Below, one piece after another: positions 48,876-59,045 of a DNA stretch of 64,000 nt (positions are counted from its first letter, which is position 1; the number at the start of each line of letters is the position of its first letter). The stretch is taken from the NCBI GenBank assembly GCA_014055465.1, contig WIAF01000001.1, positions 434,001-498,000 on the forward strand. Reading direction: 5' to 3'. The DNA is from Nitrospira sp. CR1.1. GTDB taxonomy: Bacteria > Nitrospirota > Nitrospiria > Nitrospirales > Nitrospiraceae. Under the pieces are notes generated by a model. The model did no database searches, was not told the DNA's origin, and worked only from the letters and a program-made list of their open reading frames with translations. A program made the position numbers and the translations under genes.

Positions 48876-49586
48876 CTAGCTGAGCAGTTTTGCCGGTTCT
48901 GGCTGTGCCCCTTCTTTTGCCTTCGGCTTGTAACCCATCCGGTCGAGCACCTTCATGATCTTGGTTTTCAAGCGGTCGTCTGCCTCCGCCAGCGCCGTGG
49001 CGAGAGGCTCGACCGCCGGCTTGCCGATCTTCCGGATAATTTCTGTCGCCGACTGACGCACATCGTCTTCCTCGGCCACCAGCAGCGGCACGAGCGGGGG
49101 AACAGCCGACCCGCCGATCTTAATCAACGAATCATAGGCCCGCTGCCGCACATCGCCCACTTCATCGGTGAGGGCTTCGACCAGAGGCACCACCGCGCGC
49201 GGATCCTTCAAGTCGCCCAGGACTTCCGCCGCATATTTACGGTTGAGCCAGTGCGAATCCTTCAAATCGATCAGCATCGCGTCGGCTTTGGCGGCGTTCG
49301 GATCTTTCGCGCGAATCCGGAAGCTCTTGGCCACGCGCTTGCCGCCTTCTTCCACCACACGAATCGTGGCCCCGTCGCCCGGCTTGATCTTGAGGAACTC
49401 TTCGAGGGCTTCTTCCCCGACATCCAACACAACCGTTTTCCCGTCATAGGCCAACAGTTCGACTTCCAACTGTTTTGCCTCCGGATTGACGGCCACGACC
49501 CGCTCCGTCACCAGGTTGAATCCGTCTTTCTTGGGGCCGCCCTTCGGTCCGATTTGAATCAGTTTTACCGGTGCTTCTTCTGCCAT
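48876..49586 (-). CDS. HEAT-repeat protein with an N-terminal beta domain
   Basis: 236 residues; AAGGAA precedes the ATG. Residues 1-95 form a beta-rich unit (LVTERVVAVNPEAKQLEVEL, LLAYDGKTVVLDVGEEALEE, KPGDGATIRVVEEGGKRVAK) resembling an OB-like or KOW-type fold. HEAT repeats follow from about 110: RKYAAEVLGDLKDPRAVVPL, VRQRAYDSLIKIGGSAVPPL, RQSATEIIRKIGKPAVEPLA. HEAT repeats make superhelical protein-binding scaffolds. It is the last of five HEAT genes. Function not known. Confidence 0.8.
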   Translation of the reverse strand: MAEEAPVKLIQIGPKGGPKKDGFNLVTERVVAVNPEAKQLEVELLAYDGKTVVLDVGEEALEEFLKIKPGDGATIRVVEEGGKRVAKSFRIRAKDPNAAKADAMLIDLKDSHWLNRKYAAEVLGDLKDPRAVVPLVEALTDEVGDVRQRAYDSLIKIGGSAVPPLVPLLVAEEDDVRQSATEIIRKIGKPAVEPLATALAEADDRLKTKIMKVLDRMGYKPKAKEGAQPEPAKLLS

Positions 49587-49606: not shown

Positions 49607-50368
49607 TTATGACGAGGTCGCCTGTTTCCATCCCAAACTTGCGAGAACACCTTCGACGGTCTCTTGCACCATCGTATTTTCATCTTCCAAAAGAGGGAGC
49701 AGCGGCTCGATGGCCTGCTTGGCCCCGAGTCGCGCCAACGATTCAGCGGCATTCCGGCGGACAAGCCAGTCCTCATCCTGCAGGGACTGGATCAAGGCCT
49801 CGGCGCTGCGCGGGTCGCCGATCTTTCCGAGCGCCTCTGCCGCATGACGCCGAACCATCCAATTAGGTCCCAAGAGACCGCCGATCAATGCATCGACCGC
49901 CCTGGTGTCGCCGATTTTCTTCAACACCCGCGCGACATCTTCACGCACCGTGCCGTCACCCAGCGCGTCAATCAATCCAGGCGTCGCCCGGGAGTCGCCG
50001 ATACGCTCCAGTGCCCACACCGCCGCGGTCCTGACGGCTCCATCCTTATCCTTGAGCGCCGCCATCAGGGGATCGACGGCGCGGGGATCGCGGAACCGTC
50101 CGAGCGCGTTCGCGGCCTGTTCGCGGATCGCCCATTCATCGTCTCGCAAGGCCTCCAACAGCTGATCGAACGCAACGGGGCCGATGCGCACCACCGCCGT
50201 CGCGGCCGCTTCACGAATGACCACGTCCTCGTCCGCCATCAGGCCAATCAATTGAGGAACGGCCTCAATCCCCATCTGTCCGAGACTCGCCATCGCATGG
50301 TCCCGCAACGCCTCATTGTCGTCGCGCAACGCCGCTATCAATTGTGCAATTCGCTCGGCATCACTCAT
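49607..50368 (-). CDS. HEAT-repeat protein (PBS-lyase type)
   Basis: 253 residues from the ATG at 50368; it overlaps the preceding gene's stop by eight bases, while the longer frame would run far into that gene. About seven 31-residue repeats are visible, for example RDDNEALRDHAMASLGQMGI, IREQAANALGRFRDPRAVDP, VRRHAAEALGKIGDPRSAEA and VRRNAAESLARLGAKQAIEP. It has no catalytic motif and no signal peptide. Probably a cytoplasmic scaffold. It is coupled to its neighbours. Confidence 0.82.
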   Translation of the reverse strand: MSDAERIAQLIAALRDDNEALRDHAMASLGQMGIEAVPQLIGLMADEDVVIREAAATAVVRIGPVAFDQLLEALRDDEWAIREQAANALGRFRDPRAVDPLMAALKDKDGAVRTAAVWALERIGDSRATPGLIDALGDGTVREDVARVLKKIGDTRAVDALIGGLLGPNWMVRRHAAEALGKIGDPRSAEALIQSLQDEDWLVRRNAAESLARLGAKQAIEPLLPLLEDENTMVQETVEGVLASLGWKQATSS

Positions 50369-51461
50369 GATCGTCCGCTTCCTCCTGCCCGACCGGCTGT
50401 TCACCCTCGAGTGCCGCAAGTTTGTCCGCAATAAGGCCGGCGCTGTACGACACGATGCCGTCCCGATCGCTTCGCAACCGGTTGAACAGCTCGTTATACG
50501 GACGCAAGACCTCGACATCTTTGATTTTCGCCAGCGCCTCGATGGCCATCACTCGCAAGGGCCGGATCGGGATCGCTTCAATATACAATTGTGCCGGACG
50601 CGGATCGCCAATCAGCCCTAGCGACTTCACGGCATACTCCTTCACTCCGGTATCCTTATCCTTCTGCAGCCGTTTCATCAACGGTTCCACCGCGCGCACG
50701 TCACCGATTTTCCCAAGCAAATCCGCGGCGGCTTCACGGATGAGCCAATCGTCGTCCTCAAGATACTCGATGAGAATCTCAACCGCAGGCCGCCCGATCC
50801 CCAGGAGATCCATCACCGTGGCCATGCGGGCTTCCTCGCGTTCGCTCGCGCCCTCCACATCACGCAACGCATTAAACGTCGCATCGATCCGTTCCCGGAT
50901 GGCGCTCAGCTTCTTCAATGTCCGCACGGCGATTTCGCGGACCGCTGGGGAGGCCATGGCGTCGATCAATCCATCGGCTGAACGCGGGTCGAGCAGATGT
51001 TCGAGAATGGTCGCGGCCGTCGTTTGCGCCTCCGCAGCCGGGTGGCTCAACATTTCACACAACGGCGTGATCGCATTGGGAATCACGCCCAAGAGCTGCC
51101 GAACGCGATGACGCACATCCTCATCGGGCGACTCGTGAAGATTGCGCACCAACCCCGCCGCAGTGTTGTCGTCCAAATTGCCGGCCATCTGCTCAAGTGC
51201 GGCAAACGCGGCCTGCCGCACCGTCTCTTCAGGATCCCGAATCAACGTGACCAACGCAACGCCCGCAGCCGGATCTTTGATGCGCGCCAACATCGCCGCC
51301 GCTTCCACACGAAGAGGCACATCGCCTGTCCGCAGCGCCTGCGTCAAGGCGTGGACCGCCCGAGGACCGCCGGCCAGGCAAGCCGCCGTGGCTCGCATCC
51401 GCCGCCACTCTTCCTCGTGCGTCAACTCGGAGACTAAGGTGTCGATCGACTCTTTGGACAT
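50361..51461 (-). CDS. HEAT-repeat protein
   Basis: 366 residues with about ten repeats, such as RVEAAAMLARIKDPAAGVAL, VRQAAFAALEQMAGNLDDNT, IREAAADLLGKIGDVRAVEP and VKEYAVKSLGLIGDPRPAQL. The last 60 or so residues are an acidic, less regular tail (EQPVGQEEADDHE). No signal peptide or catalytic motif. No clear ribosome site precedes the ATG, so translation may depend on coupling. Function unknown. Confidence 0.8.
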   Translation of the reverse strand: MSKESIDTLVSELTHEEEWRRMRATAACLAGGPRAVHALTQALRTGDVPLRVEAAAMLARIKDPAAGVALVTLIRDPEETVRQAAFAALEQMAGNLDDNTAAGLVRNLHESPDEDVRHRVRQLLGVIPNAITPLCEMLSHPAAEAQTTAATILEHLLDPRSADGLIDAMASPAVREIAVRTLKKLSAIRERIDATFNALRDVEGASEREEARMATVMDLLGIGRPAVEILIEYLEDDDWLIREAAADLLGKIGDVRAVEPLMKRLQKDKDTGVKEYAVKSLGLIGDPRPAQLYIEAIPIRPLRVMAIEALAKIKDVEVLRPYNELFNRLRSDRDGIVSYSAGLIADKLAALEGEQPVGQEEADDHE

Positions 51462-51556: not shown

Positions 51557-52639
51557 TTAGACTCGCCCGGCGCGCCACCCAACCGCCGTGAGCGTTTCCC
51601 GAACGTGATACCGGATATTTTCATCCTGCTCGTTCGCCAGCATGGGCAGGAGAGACGGGATCACCGCCGGTCCGAATTTCGTCAGGGCCGTAGCGGCTTC
51701 CGACCGGGTAATGGTATTCCGCAAGGCCACGATGAGCGAAGGAATCGCCACCGCATCGGCGATCATCCCTAATGCACGGGCCGCCATCCCCATCGTGGCC
51801 ATCTCGTCCGTCCAGCCTTCGGCGCAGGGTGTGGCCGAACTTCTCGGCTCACCCAGCGGTACCCCCTCGACAACCCGCCGCAAAATTGGCACCACCCGGC
51901 GGTCGCCGATATGACCGAGGGCTTCGACTGCCAAGAGCCGTAACCCTGGCTCCTTCATCACCGCCACCAGATAATCCACCGCGCGCCCGTCTCGAATCAC
52001 GCCCAGCGCCCGGACCACATCTTCGCGAATCGCCGAGTCCCGTTCATTGAACAAGGTCCGCAACAAGGGCTCGACGGAGTCCGGCGACTTCAGCTTCCCC
52101 AATGCCTCCACCGCATGGAGGCGCACCAGCCAGTCATCATGCTGCAGGGCCTCAATCAACCCTGCCATCGCCGCAACGCCAATGGCGGCCAGCGCACTGG
52201 AAGCCTCCTCGCGGACGGCCTTGACCTTGTCTTGCAGCAGCGGCATCAGGGCAGGAACCGCGTCCGGGTCGCCGATCCGTCCCAAGCCCTTTGCCGCGTG
52301 CATGCGCACAATCCAATCGCGACTGCCCAGGGCTTTCATGAGCGGCGCCAAGACTCGCGCATCAGCCAGGGAAGCCAGAATGGCCGATGCCGCTTCTTGC
52401 ACCTGCAAGGCTGGATCGGTCAAACAGCCCGCCAAGGCTGGAACCGAGACGGATCCGAGCGATGAAAGGGCCCCGACTGCAGCTTCGCGGACCGCGCGAT
52501 CGGTATCGCGCAGCGCGTTCGTCAGCGGCAGTACGGCCCGCGCATCTTTCAGGGCGCCCAGCAGGGTCGCCGCTTCCTCGCGAATGGCCCAATCTTCATC
52601 CGACAGGGCTGCGATCTGTTCACTGACAGTGTCGGCCAT
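51557..52639 (-). CDS. HEAT-repeat protein
   Basis: 360 residues made almost wholly of repeats: IREEAATLLGALKDARAVLP, VREAAVGALSSLGSVSVPAL, RMHAAKGLGRIGDPDAVPAL, VREEASSALAAIGVAAMAGL, IREDVVRALGVIRDGRAVDY and so on. GAGG lies six bases before the ATG. A gap of about 95 bp separates it from the next HEAT gene. It has no catalytic signature. Confidence 0.82.
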   Translation of the reverse strand: MADTVSEQIAALSDEDWAIREEAATLLGALKDARAVLPLTNALRDTDRAVREAAVGALSSLGSVSVPALAGCLTDPALQVQEAASAILASLADARVLAPLMKALGSRDWIVRMHAAKGLGRIGDPDAVPALMPLLQDKVKAVREEASSALAAIGVAAMAGLIEALQHDDWLVRLHAVEALGKLKSPDSVEPLLRTLFNERDSAIREDVVRALGVIRDGRAVDYLVAVMKEPGLRLLAVEALGHIGDRRVVPILRRVVEGVPLGEPRSSATPCAEGWTDEMATMGMAARALGMIADAVAIPSLIVALRNTITRSEAATALTKFGPAVIPSLLPMLANEQDENIRYHVRETLTAVGWRAGRV

Positions 52640-52821: not shown

Positions 52822-54192
52822 TTACCGCACCGATCCTTTCGCGAAATCTCCGCTCGGACCGAAGCGACCGATATCTCCCAGCGGACGATCGACACGAAGA
52901 TTGTCGGCCTGACTGGAGTCCACCGAGGTCTCCTCATCGGGAGGTGTCCATCCCAGGTGCTCCAGCGTTTCCACGACCAGTAACCGCAGAGAATCCTTCG
53001 CAGTCAATCGGACAGACGCGTAGGACAGCACCCGCTCGCCTTCGGCTTCGACCTCCGAGGCCTTCGGATCGTACAGGAAAGAAATCAGCGGCTCGATGGC
53101 CGAATCACCGATCAACACCAGCGCTGCGGCAGCCTTCTCGCGCAACACCCCATCCTTCAACAGCATGATGAGATCGGGGATCACACGGGGATCGCGGAAA
53201 TGTCCGAGTGCGGTCGCGGCCGCTTCTTTGATAAACGCATCTTCGCTGACGATACATCCGGGGGTCGGTGTCCCATCCTGGCGAACACCTTTCCCTTTGA
53301 GGGCCGCCAACACGGCAGGGAGGGCGCGCGGGTCACCGATCATTCCGAGCGAGGCAATAGCATGCCGCTTCACAGCGCCGTCTTTCATGGCCTCCAGCAG
53401 TCCATCGATGGCCCGGGGATCACCGATCATTCCCAAGGCAATCGTGGCATCTTCGCGCACGGCCCGGTCCGGATCTTTTAAGGCCTCGATCAAGGCATCC
53501 ACGACGCGCGGCTCCCTCACCCAGCTTTTGCCGATTTGATAGTCCGTCGTCATGCCGCCCAACGCTCGAGCCGCATGGCAGCGCACGACGAAGTCCTTGT
53601 CCTTCATCGTTTCAAGGAGTAGATCGACTGATGGCTGTCCAATCGCGACCAGCGCAATGCCGGCGGTCTCACGCACGATCTTCGAGGAATCCCGGAACAG
53701 CTTGATCAAGGCAGGAATCGCCTTCGCGTCGCCGATTTTTCCCAAGGCTTCCGCCGCCGCACTCTTGACAGCGCCGTCGCGATCCCGACAGGCAAATATC
53801 AATGCGTCGACGGCACGTGAATCGCGAAGATCACCGCAGGCCTTTGCCGAATGTTCCCGGACACGCCACCGCTCGTCCTTCATCGCCGTAAGGAGCCGAT
53901 CCATCTGACCCGCGCCCAGTGACACCACGGCTGCGACCGCTTCGTTGCGGACTTCCATGATGGGATCATTAAACAACGCGATCAGCGCTTCGATCGCCTT
54001 CGGCCCACCGATCTTGGCGACGCCCCAGCCGGCCCGCGTGCGCACGCACCAATATTCGTCGCCGCAAGCGCCAATCAGCGCATCCAGGGTGATCGGGTCC
54101 GCCAACTGCGCCAGGGCTTTGACCGCTTCTTCACGGGTTGCATCATCCGGATCTTCAAGGGAATCAAGCAGATCATCGAGCGCCTGTGCCAT
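52822..54192 (-). CDS. HEAT-repeat protein, longest of the cluster
   Basis: 456 residues from the ATG at 54192, which has GAGG six bases upstream. About twelve repeats include TREEAVKALAQLADPITLDA, VRTRAGWGVAKIGGPKAIEA, VREHSAKACGDLRDSRAVDA and VREDATIALGMIGDPRAIDG. It overlaps the end of the preceding exported-protein gene by 20 bases, so the HEAT genes are tied to the exported genes upstream. A variable loop interrupts repeats near KGKGVRQDGTPTPGCIVSED. No signal peptide. Confidence 0.83.
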   Translation of the reverse strand: MAQALDDLLDSLEDPDDATREEAVKALAQLADPITLDALIGACGDEYWCVRTRAGWGVAKIGGPKAIEALIALFNDPIMEVRNEAVAAVVSLGAGQMDRLLTAMKDERWRVREHSAKACGDLRDSRAVDALIFACRDRDGAVKSAAAEALGKIGDAKAIPALIKLFRDSSKIVRETAGIALVAIGQPSVDLLLETMKDKDFVVRCHAARALGGMTTDYQIGKSWVREPRVVDALIEALKDPDRAVREDATIALGMIGDPRAIDGLLEAMKDGAVKRHAIASLGMIGDPRALPAVLAALKGKGVRQDGTPTPGCIVSEDAFIKEAAATALGHFRDPRVIPDLIMLLKDGVLREKAAAALVLIGDSAIEPLISFLYDPKASEVEAEGERVLSYASVRLTAKDSLRLLVVETLEHLGWTPPDEETSVDSSQADNLRVDRPLGDIGRFGPSGDFAKGSVR

Positions 54193-54664
54193 CACTCACC
54201 TCACTATTCCCGTAATAGGCATCACGTTGACCGCCATGAGGATAGGTGCGCTTGCACCGTACCACCAGGGTCTGAGTCCCGCGGCCCGCCACACATTGAT
54301 CGAGTGACTTGGAGTATTCCAGTTTCCCGTCCAAACTCACCGTGAAGGGGAAGTCGAAGGTAAAACTGATGAACTTATATTGTCCCGGCTTGAGCTGTAA
54401 CTCACGCGTTTCGGTCGTCCGGTACGCATCAGATGTTTCCGGATCCAATATCCAGAGCGATGGCGTAATGCCCGGCACCTGCCACCACGATTGGGGCACT
54501 AAGGGAGTCGGGTCGATCGTGATGGTATGTTCCTTGGTATAGGCGGGCGGCGGACCGGCCGCCAGGAGCCGTTCAGAATTTCCGGCGAGCACGGCGCATG
54601 ATAATGCGAGGATCCAGGTAAAAGTCTGCCGCCCAATGAAAGATCTTTGCGACAAGATACGCAT
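54173..54664 (-). CDS. Small exported protein upstream of the HEAT genes
   Basis: 163 residues from the ATG at 54664; the longer frame has no ribosome site. A signal peptide (RQTFTWILALSCAVLAGNSE) precedes a beta-rich part: HTITIDPTPLVPQSWWQVPG, LWILDPETSDAYRTTETREL, QLKPGQYKFISFTFDFPFTV and a Cys pair separated by 12 residues (QCVAGRGTQTLVVRC). It resembles no family I know. It is 10 bases after the alkaline-phosphatase-like gene and overlaps the first HEAT gene. Confidence 0.68.
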   Translation of the reverse strand: MRILSQRSFIGRQTFTWILALSCAVLAGNSERLLAAGPPPAYTKEHTITIDPTPLVPQSWWQVPGITPSLWILDPETSDAYRTTETRELQLKPGQYKFISFTFDFPFTVSLDGKLEYSKSLDQCVAGRGTQTLVVRCKRTYPHGGQRDAYYGNSEVSDGTGAR

Positions 54665-54674
54665 CGGTCCTCTA

Positions 54675-55727
54675 TTATTGCAGAAGTGGGGTGACAGGAG
54701 CAGCCGTGAACGCGGTCTTGAAAATTTCCTCGACCGGATGACTCTCCCATTCGGTATAGGTCGCCAGTCCGAGGGCGCGCATGACGGTTGCGCCCGTATC
54801 GATAATTGACACCGGCTGACGAATCGCGTACCCGGCCTTAATGCCGACGCCTGACGCGATCCAAGGCACGACCGGAACGGCATTCGCTTGATCGGCAGAC
54901 ATCTCACCGGAAGAAAACTGCGTTTCCCCGAAGGCGCTGAGCGAGGTGGCAAAGACCGTCGTCCGTTTCATCAGGCCGAGGTCACGATATAGATCGAGCA
55001 CGGTCCCCATCGCCTTATCCACAGCCTTTAACGCATCTTTATACGCGGCCGACTTCCAGCCTTGCGCCTCCCCAACACGCCCGGGAACAGGCAAATGCAC
55101 GACCAGAAGATGCGGCAACGAGGGAATGGCGTGACCATGCCCAGATCCGCTCGTAGCTTTCTTGAAATAATCACGCACATAGCCGACCAACCGGTCGGGG
55201 TTGCACTCGGCTCTCAGCGGCCCGCACATTTGATAATCCGTATAGGGTTCCGGTTTGGCGAGCTGATACAGAGATTCGTCCATGTAGAAGATGGCGCTGT
55301 CCCGGCCGCCGCTCAAATCGAGATAATCAAACACCGTCGGGGCGCGCGGATATCCACGGCTGAATTCAAAAACATTCCAGGTGATGCCATGCTTGGCCAC
55401 CGGCATCCCCGTCACCAGCGAGGCCATGGTCGGTAACCGTCGCGCAGGCGAAACTGCCGTGGCCGCCCAGGTGACCGCCCCATCTTTCACCAGAGAGGAC
55501 AGAACCGGCATCACGCCGCTCTTTAACGATTCCTGGCCAAACCCTTCCAAAACAAACAGAATGACATACTCCGTTGGCCCTGCCTGCGCGGAGGACGGAA
55601 CAGTATCTCCCGCGTCCCGTGCAGCCAACACTACCGAGGGAGAGAACGAGGCCAGGACGGTCAGGCTCAGGACAATGGCCAGGCAACACCCGACCGAGGC
55701 GGATGAAATATTGCGGATGAAACTCAT
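54675..55727 (-). CDS. Exported alkaline-phosphatase-superfamily protein, metal site degenerate
   Basis: 350 residues from the ATG at 55727 (GAGG six bases upstream). A signal peptide ends near VVLAARDAG. The fold is recognisable by YVILFVLEGFGQESLKSGVM, RRLPTMASLVTGMPVAKHGI, VFDYLDLSGGRDSAIFYMDE and LSAFGETQFSSGEMSADQAN. In active members the first motif is DGxR-like with Asp, a PDxxGH segment binds metal, and a SDHGM segment ends the site. Here the first has Glu, the second reads HLPVPGRVGEAQG and the third TSLSAFGE. It is probably inactive as a phosphatase/sulfatase. It opens the HEAT operon. Confidence 0.78.
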   Translation of the reverse strand: MSFIRNISSASVGCCLAIVLSLTVLASFSPSVVLAARDAGDTVPSSAQAGPTEYVILFVLEGFGQESLKSGVMPVLSSLVKDGAVTWAATAVSPARRLPTMASLVTGMPVAKHGITWNVFEFSRGYPRAPTVFDYLDLSGGRDSAIFYMDESLYQLAKPEPYTDYQMCGPLRAECNPDRLVGYVRDYFKKATSGSGHGHAIPSLPHLLVVHLPVPGRVGEAQGWKSAAYKDALKAVDKAMGTVLDLYRDLGLMKRTTVFATSLSAFGETQFSSGEMSADQANAVPVVPWIASGVGIKAGYAIRQPVSIIDTGATVMRALGLATYTEWESHPVEEIFKTAFTAAPVTPLLQ

Positions 55728-55771
55728 GAGATGCCTCACCAGACAATCGATTTATAAAGCGCAGAAAAAAT

Positions 55772-55801
55772 ACCTTAGCACGCTGTTTTCCGGGAAGGCA
55801 A
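55772..55801 (-). promoter_or_regulatory. Possible promoter of the exported-pseudoenzyme/HEAT operon
   Basis: TTGCCT (55796-55801) and TAAGGT (55772-55777) on the minus strand are 18 bases apart, with TGC before the -10. Predicted leader about 40 bases. Confidence 0.42.
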
Positions 55802-55917
55802 GGCACGGACCCCAGCCCTCCATAGCGCCTGAGAGGATTCGATGGTATCCTGAGCCAATCGGGATTGGGCATGTGATATCCCGTCTCCCGAACCCCTTCT
55901 TGCAGCGGGGCACCGCC

Positions 55918-57791: not shown

Positions 57792-59045
57792 ATGCCGATT
57801 GAAAACAATTTCCAGCATGACGAACTCTCCAGGAAGAATCCGGGCGACCGCCTGACCTATGCGGACTGGACACCGCCGCCTGACGTGGATTCGCCCGCCT
57901 GGCAAGCAGCCATGGGCCAGGCCGGACAGAAGTTATCGCAAGCCGGAGTGCGGCTTATCGTCTTCCTGCATGGGGCTATCCCAGGCACCGACGTCTTTGG
58001 TTTAGGGCGTCTCGACGAAGTGGGCGGCCTCAAGCGCGGGTATTCGCGCGGCATCTCCGGATTGGATTCACTCCTCTCGTTCATGCGGGAAGGCAGCAAC
58101 GGCATCACACCGCTTCCTGGCGGAATGAAACCGCCGCTGGCGAATGACGAGGCAACCAAAACGCTGCTCGACAGTCAGATCGGCGACGCAGGCAATTTCA
58201 CCGCACCGATCGTGGAGCGGTGCCGCAAAGCTCTCAACCAGGACGTTGCCAAACCCATTGCCTGCGTACGCGAACTCTGGTCCAGCGAACACCATCATCT
58301 CGGCCGCGCCCTGGCCGCCTGCCGTCTCTTGGACCATCTGCGCGCCTTGGTGAGTGAACAACGGTTGGGCCCCGGGGATCGCATTCTGATTCAAGCCCAT
58401 GGGCAGTCCGGTCTCGTGCTCGCGCTGGCCACTAATCTTCTCTGTCCCTCACCGATCACCGGACGGAAAGCATTGTTCGATTTGCTCCTCGCTGCGAACC
58501 CGCAGGGACCGGATGCGCAGGCCATTCAGCGCCTCGACCCGTTATTGACCAATGGCACCTTGCTCAATGGCGCAGTCCTCGATATCGTCACCTTTGGCAC
58601 GCCGGTAAGGTACGGATGGGACCCCTCCGGCATCGGCAAGCTGCTCCACATCGTGAACCATCGCAATTTGCGCACCGACGGGAAAACCTGGCTCTCCAAA
58701 ATGGACCTGCCGCAGATCACCGTCGAGATGCCGATCGCTTGGGGCGGCGACTACGTGCAGGAACTGGCCGTGGCCGGAAGCGATGCCCTGCCAGCCGAGA
58801 GCGCCAAAGCCGCCAATAAAGCGGTGTGGGAATTGCTAGAACCTTACGACGGCTTCGAACGCTGGGTGGAATGCGCCCGCCGCGCCACCCGCTTTCCAAG
58901 CGAGGGACAGTGTCTGCTCGTCGATTACAAAGACTGCACGAGCTCAACCAACGTCCGCGACCATTACTACGGCCACGCCGCCTACACGCGCGCAAACGCG
59001 ATGCTCTTCAACTTTACTCAGATCGTCGGTCGGCTGTATTCATAA
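57792..59045 (+). CDS. Alpha/beta-hydrolase-like protein with altered nucleophile elbow
   Basis: 417 residues without a signal peptide. Landmarks of a lipase/esterase-like fold are RLIVFLHGAIPGTDVFGLGR (52-71), LIQAHGQSGLVLALATNLL (199-217) at the nucleophile elbow, DIVTFGTPVRYGWDP (264-278) and DHYYGHAAYT (390-399). In canonical enzymes the elbow is GHSxGG; here it is A202-H203-G204-Q205-S206-G207, so the nucleophile Ser appears as Gly. S206 could act instead, but the spacing is off. It has no recognised family name. A homologous fragment lies at 59950-60042. Confidence 0.65.
   Translation: MPIENNFQHDELSRKNPGDRLTYADWTPPPDVDSPAWQAAMGQAGQKLSQAGVRLIVFLHGAIPGTDVFGLGRLDEVGGLKRGYSRGISGLDSLLSFMREGSNGITPLPGGMKPPLANDEATKTLLDSQIGDAGNFTAPIVERCRKALNQDVAKPIACVRELWSSEHHHLGRALAACRLLDHLRALVSEQRLGPGDRILIQAHGQSGLVLALATNLLCPSPITGRKALFDLLLAANPQGPDAQAIQRLDPLLTNGTLLNGAVLDIVTFGTPVRYGWDPSGIGKLLHIVNHRNLRTDGKTWLSKMDLPQITVEMPIAWGGDYVQELAVAGSDALPAESAKAANKAVWELLEPYDGFERWVECARRATRFPSEGQCLLVDYKDCTSSTNVRDHYYGHAAYTRANAMLFNFTQIVGRLYS

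Follow-up and report, generated by a model that had tools for sequence, protein, structure and literature searches.

An exported alkaline-phosphatase-superfamily protein with a replaced catalytic site, and its constant small partner, in Nitrospirales

Bacterial pseudoenzymes of the alkaline phosphatase superfamily seem to be little described, and our literature search gave essentially only PbgA/YejM, which is disputed. According to one account this protein is a pseudo-hydrolase scaffold that senses lipid A (PMC13125744), whereas others report it to act as a Mg-dependent phosphatase (PMC7576196). The dispute calls for caution also in the case presented here, a protein called AP, which should not be called inactive without an assay. 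The gene lies in the window, a stretch of 64,000 nucleotides analysed from a Nitrospira genome of 4.44 Mb, and is followed by the genes of a small exported protein, BS, and of five HEAT-repeat proteins, H1 to H5 (Table 1). Named relatives of the AP gene are found in Nitrospira, including N. defluvii and N. moscoviensis, and a search of open papers found none on AP. Below, f1 is the family Nitrospiraceae, and f2 and f3 are two other families of the order Nitrospirales.

Table 1. Positions in the window of the genes and of the AP segments discussed in the text
Feature	Positions	Strand	Remarks
AP, exported alkaline-phosphatase-superfamily protein, putative pseudoenzyme, 350 aa	54675..55727	(-)	PF01663, AlphaFold model, order-wide homologues
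Glu61 (first metal position, canonically Asp)	55545..55547	(-)	Glu in 94/94 f1 and 10/11 f3 sequences, Asp in 6/7 f2 and 5/5 NPP
Arg97 (nucleophile position, canonically Thr)	55437..55439	(-)	R in 93/94 f1; T in 10/11 f3, 7/7 f2 and 5/5 NPP
Cap segment, residues 116-180	55188..55382	(-)	Strongest constraint; newly invariant D134, D137, D143, D164
Gly216...Glu220 (canonically DxxGH; Gly for Asp216, Glu for His220)	55068..55082	(-)	Alignment with intact relatives
Leu263-Ser264 (canonically the DH of SDHG)	54936..54941	(-)	L in 91/94 f1 and 11/11 f3; DH in all f2 and NPP
BS, exported small protein, 163 aa, predicted mostly beta, two invariant Cys	54173..54664	(-)	Directly downstream of AP
H1, HEAT-repeat protein, 457 aa	52822..54195	(-)	Overlaps the end of BS; order AP-BS-H1 kept in f1 and f3
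H2, HEAT-repeat protein	51557..52639	(-)	
H3, HEAT-repeat protein	50361..51461	(-)	
H4, HEAT-repeat protein	49607..50368	(-)	
H5, HEAT-repeat protein	48876..49586	(-)	

The reading frame of AP runs from an ATG at 55727 to a stop codon at 54675-54677. The PF01663 Phosphodiest profile matches residues 55-262 (E=3.9e-19, 69.9 bits, the curated cut-off being 23 bits) and is matched by all 11 members of set A1. An AlphaFold model of AP, made from 41 sequences (pLDDT 81, pTM 0.80), has its top Foldseek matches in the PDB among the Xanthomonas (Xac) NPP, ENPP1 and other ENPP enzymes, with E of about 1e-13 and a TM-score of about 0.63 by query length, and AP thus has the alpha/beta fold of the superfamily. 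The original prediction, in which the fold was called clear and the protein exported, was right on both counts: the N-terminus is signal-like and hydrophobic (KD 2.6) and forms a helix at residues 12-25 in the model. It is the single hydrophobic helix, with no other transmembrane domain, and we infer that AP is located in the periplasm.

The stretches LEGFGQE, HLPVPGRVGEAQG and TSLSAFGE were found in the translation, and they align with VDG/LDG, DxxGH and (S/T)DHG of intact relatives; a profile-profile alignment of AP with canonical NPPs of the same genus had a probability of 97.9%. All three had been pointed out as altered metal motifs, and this holds, but the claim that all visible metal motifs are altered overlooked two further losses, that of the nucleophile, replaced by Arg97, and that of the final metal His, which belongs to the HGT motif in f2 and is missing from AP. 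AP is therefore without the metal ligands of an NPP-type site (Asp, DxxxH, DH and His) as well as the Thr/Ser nucleophile of an active NPP-type phosphodiesterase. The metal loops retain Glu61 alone, and an invariant His211 is found five residues ahead of the lost Asp216. Glu61 would not by itself be inactivating, because LtaS/EptA/MCR-type enzymes use Glu at the first metal position (PMC7576196) and one f2 sequence, L054, has Glu there (VEG) with the rest of the site intact. Judged from its residues, AP is probably catalytically dead, and the inactivity would be complete.

The loss is fixed. When the six catalytic positions were scored in distinct sequences, no canonical residue was kept in any of the 94 sequences from f1, and one or two, usually Thr, in the 11 from f3, while the seven f2 sequences keep five or six and the genus's own NPPs all six. 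The original prediction had proposed a comparison of orthologues, and the altered residues proved to be conserved in f1 (Table 1). As the motifs are lacking in all 94 f1 and all 11 f3 sequences, under strong purifying selection, their loss is not a matter of chance. In the maximum-likelihood tree f1 and f3 form one branch (support 100/98), separate from f2 and from the NPPs, and a single origin of the loss is therefore sufficient. The stem of this branch is 2.45 changes per column, as compared to 0.53 for f2, and the placement of f2 relative to it involves long branches, of which the tree program warns. The order thus holds a natural series, from f2 with an intact site, over f3 where the metal site is lost and the nucleophile usually kept, to f1 where everything is lost and the Glu-Arg combination is fixed.

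An AP homologue is present in 149 of 154 good Nitrospirales genomes, which makes it a core gene, and outside the order a sample of the phylum gave weak partial matches at most. A search of viral contigs gave six pattern matches and no relative. The frame is open in almost all copies; for one orthologue, L026 in genome G017, the search reported a single in-frame TAG. The mature domain has a dN/dS of 0.039 within the genus, which means strong purifying selection, although this and the other dN/dS values for AP are rough because dS is above 1. The absence of the catalytic residues could also be what is seen in a decaying relic without function. We find this extremely improbable, and the selection and the distribution refute the status of a pseudogene, as do the retained frames, gene order and duplicates.

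The constraint is not evenly distributed over the protein. Within the genus, dN/dS is 0.012 for residues 116-180, here named the cap because they come after the nucleophile segment and before the following strands of the core, as compared to 0.061 for residues 203-300, with the same roughness in both values. Conservation of the SDHG/HGT segment drops from 0.88 in f2 to 0.52 in f1 and f3 taken together, whereas for cap residues 116-160 it holds at 0.87 between f2 and the pseudo clade. Furthermore, several cap positions, among them D134, D137, D143 and D164, are invariant in the pseudo clade and are other residues in f2. With the catalytic loop relaxed, the cap held and new residues made invariant, the constraint has moved from the catalytic loop to the cap. 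Ten acidic or His positions are at least 99% conserved in f1 and f3 (E61, H113, D134, D137, D143, E151, D164, H211, D237 and D310), and it is conceivable that AP is still an enzyme, with a site rebuilt from Glu61, His211 and the new cap aspartates and with a different nucleophile, particularly as Glu serves as the first ligand in LtaS/EptA (PMC7576196). We consider this improbable, as f1 lacks all six classical residues, has Arg for the nucleophile in 93 of 94 sequences and mostly Leu-Ser for DH, and the former SDHG/HGT loop is relaxed.

The most constant companion of AP is BS. At all 143 f1 and f3 loci where BS was found, it lies immediately downstream of AP on the same strand, and it was found near none of the 14 AP loci of f2. 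The f2 genomes do carry both BS and H1, away from AP, with the three genes on different contigs. Several Nitrospira have extra AP-BS pairs elsewhere, without H1, and the paralogous AP and BS form corresponding clades that branch internally in the same way, which shows that the pair was duplicated as a unit. AP and BS distances are correlated over 98 loci (r=0.89). The congruent trees support co-inheritance, and they do not prove contact between the two proteins, because linked genes share their history. BS belongs to no family in Pfam or NCBIfam. Its predicted structure (pLDDT 78, pTM 0.60) is mostly beta-stranded, and the best Foldseek match is an FbaB/SpyCatcher-type domain (E=0.016, prob 0.99); the matches are weak, so this fold is to be taken as a lead only.

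Some further observations were made around BS. At the loci L035, L036 and L094 the gene after a duplicate AP-BS pair encodes a protein of 812-830 aa that looks exported, and at L035 this gene is followed in turn by two for multihaem cytochromes, which are NrfH/NrfA-like by eye. In f2 genomes the homologue of BS (L167 3998-4390, and L164) has as its neighbours ABC-transporter genes that look LolD/LolE-like by eye, and a dihydroorotate-dehydrogenase-like gene. In the 3' half of BS, a block of about 240 bases (54180-54420, minus strand) hardly differs between 17 species of the genus, and is not conserved family-wide. Identity at third codon positions is 0.81-0.93 in the block, as compared to 0.53 in AP; over most of the first half of BS it is about 0.5. 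Rfam gave no match up to E=1 on 53900-55900. The block may serve to regulate the HEAT genes, or it may be the result of recent recombination. Assembly breaks or joins by runs of N occur within one and the same stretch of BS in four assemblies, L070/L170 (G009), L081/L171 (G002), L005/L172 (G026) and L173/L174 (G010), and these are probably related Nitrospira strains that share the near-identical block. A rearrangement as the cause of the apparently split BS in G009 was rejected in favour of an assembly artefact, the joins carrying N runs and three drafts ending contigs at the same spot.

AP had been placed at the head of a HEAT operon, and as gene order this is correct, AP coming first before the HEAT genes. 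H2 to H5 appear more loosely associated than AP-BS-H1; in f3 about 4 kb of other genes separate H1 from H2. No export signal was found in the HEAT proteins, and direct contact with an exported AP is therefore hardly possible. The HEAT proteins were rejected as the main partners of AP, as AP-BS pairs occur without H1 at the duplicate loci. Together with the matching paralogue clades, these duplicates imply that AP-BS is the unit, which in f1 and f3 usually stands in the context AP-BS-H1. A protein of 417 aa at 57792-59045, without Pfam or NCBIfam match, is also kept in both f1 and f3, its gene in divergent orientation relative to AP.

The composition of the unit bears on the suggestion, made in the original prediction, that AP is a ligand sensor. 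By analogy with PbgA/YejM and lipid A, a dead AP might bind a phosphorylated ligand of the envelope, a lipid or a nucleotide, and report it. An exported dead scaffold of the superfamily with a strongly conserved cap would suit such a role, but AP, its signal-like helix aside, lacks a transmembrane domain, and no kinase, response regulator or transcription factor belongs to the conserved unit, so that a transducer is missing; the HEAT proteins, lacking an export signal, are not the most constant partner, which is BS. The precedent is itself disputed as a dead enzyme (PMC7576196). On balance, we regard the sensor as a possibility, and a rather doubtful one.

Another idea is that AP-BS is tied to periplasmic nitrite oxidation, for instance by helping to assemble or protect an exported oxidoreductase. 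NxrB-like sequences, named so from a partial family match (TIGR03478, below its cut-off, E from about 1e-52 to 1e-41), were found in 9 of 13 f1/f3 genomes tested, and the f2 and f4 genomes gave weaker, shorter matches or none. The pseudo form therefore seems to accompany the nitrite-oxidising families, and one duplicate AP-BS pair is located near multihaem cytochrome genes. But this is one correlation resting on one origin and is phylogenetically confounded, four f1/f3 genomes, including that of the window, have no NxrB-like match, and the conserved unit contains no nxr gene. We think that such a tie is unlikely. The same low probability is given to its more specific form, where AP-BS would be a periplasmic module of nitrite-oxidising Nitrospirales, its phosphodiesterase having abandoned catalysis, with D134, D137, D143 and D164 of the cap making up a new ligand or metal site that senses or handles a substrate or cofactor of envelope respiration.

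The explanation that we find likely is that AP is a dead NPP-like phosphodiesterase, repurposed to serve after export, in the periplasm, as a subunit for binding or scaffolding that works with BS. The two-metal site would have been lost in the ancestor of two Nitrospirales families, and the nucleophile as well in the lineage of the Nitrospiraceae. AP may then have been kept in this role alongside BS, and the cap lobe (residues 116-180) is probably where it binds. The fold, the loss and fixation at the catalytic positions, the purifying selection, the shift of constraint and the genetic pairing of AP with BS are what the analysis shows; a physical complex of the two, with the cap as the binding surface, is what we infer from them. 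Against a dead subunit it can be said that Glu61 could act as a ligand, the way Glu does in LtaS/EptA-type enzymes, and that the invariant cap aspartates and His211 could form another metal site.

If so, in the Nitrospirales, which include major nitrite oxidisers, an enzyme appears to have been turned into an envelope component that binds or scaffolds. Almost every member of the order has the exported protein, and most have it with the catalytic site replaced and BS as its companion. AP would be a pseudoenzyme of a known superfamily, and its partner BS is new. The pair is a core one in the nitrifiers that are responsible for oxidising nitrite in soils and wastewater. Since the series of f2, f3 and f1 comes with a partner whose linkage to AP follows the same lineages, the route from enzyme to scaffold can be tested with related proteins.

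Among known systems, the NPPs of PF01663 (Xac NPP, ENPP1-7) are the best PDB matches and share the core fold and the sequence over AP residues 55-262. They differ from AP in that its metal ligands are all replaced, the first conservatively from Asp to Glu, the final His is absent, and in f1 the nucleophile is replaced. The closest relatives found with an intact site are the f2 homologues L051-L057, which are 33-38% identical to AP along the same length. In these VDG (one VEG), Thr, DxxGH, DHG and HGT are intact, and the genes are unlinked to BS or H1. PbgA/YejM/LapC resembles AP as an exported domain of the superfamily described as a regulator without canonical catalytic residues (PMC13125744, PMC7018646). 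Unlike AP, it has five transmembrane helices, a membrane domain at the N-terminus that AP lacks, and functions in enterobacterial LPS control. NF038282, the model for the PbgA/YejM family, did not match AP and gave 20.8 bits on an f2 relative, its cut-off being 825. The dead LytM peptidases of the DipM type and the bacterial pseudokinases have unrelated folds, but they, too, are dead enzymes kept as regulators or scaffolds (PMC10336132, PMC12599244).
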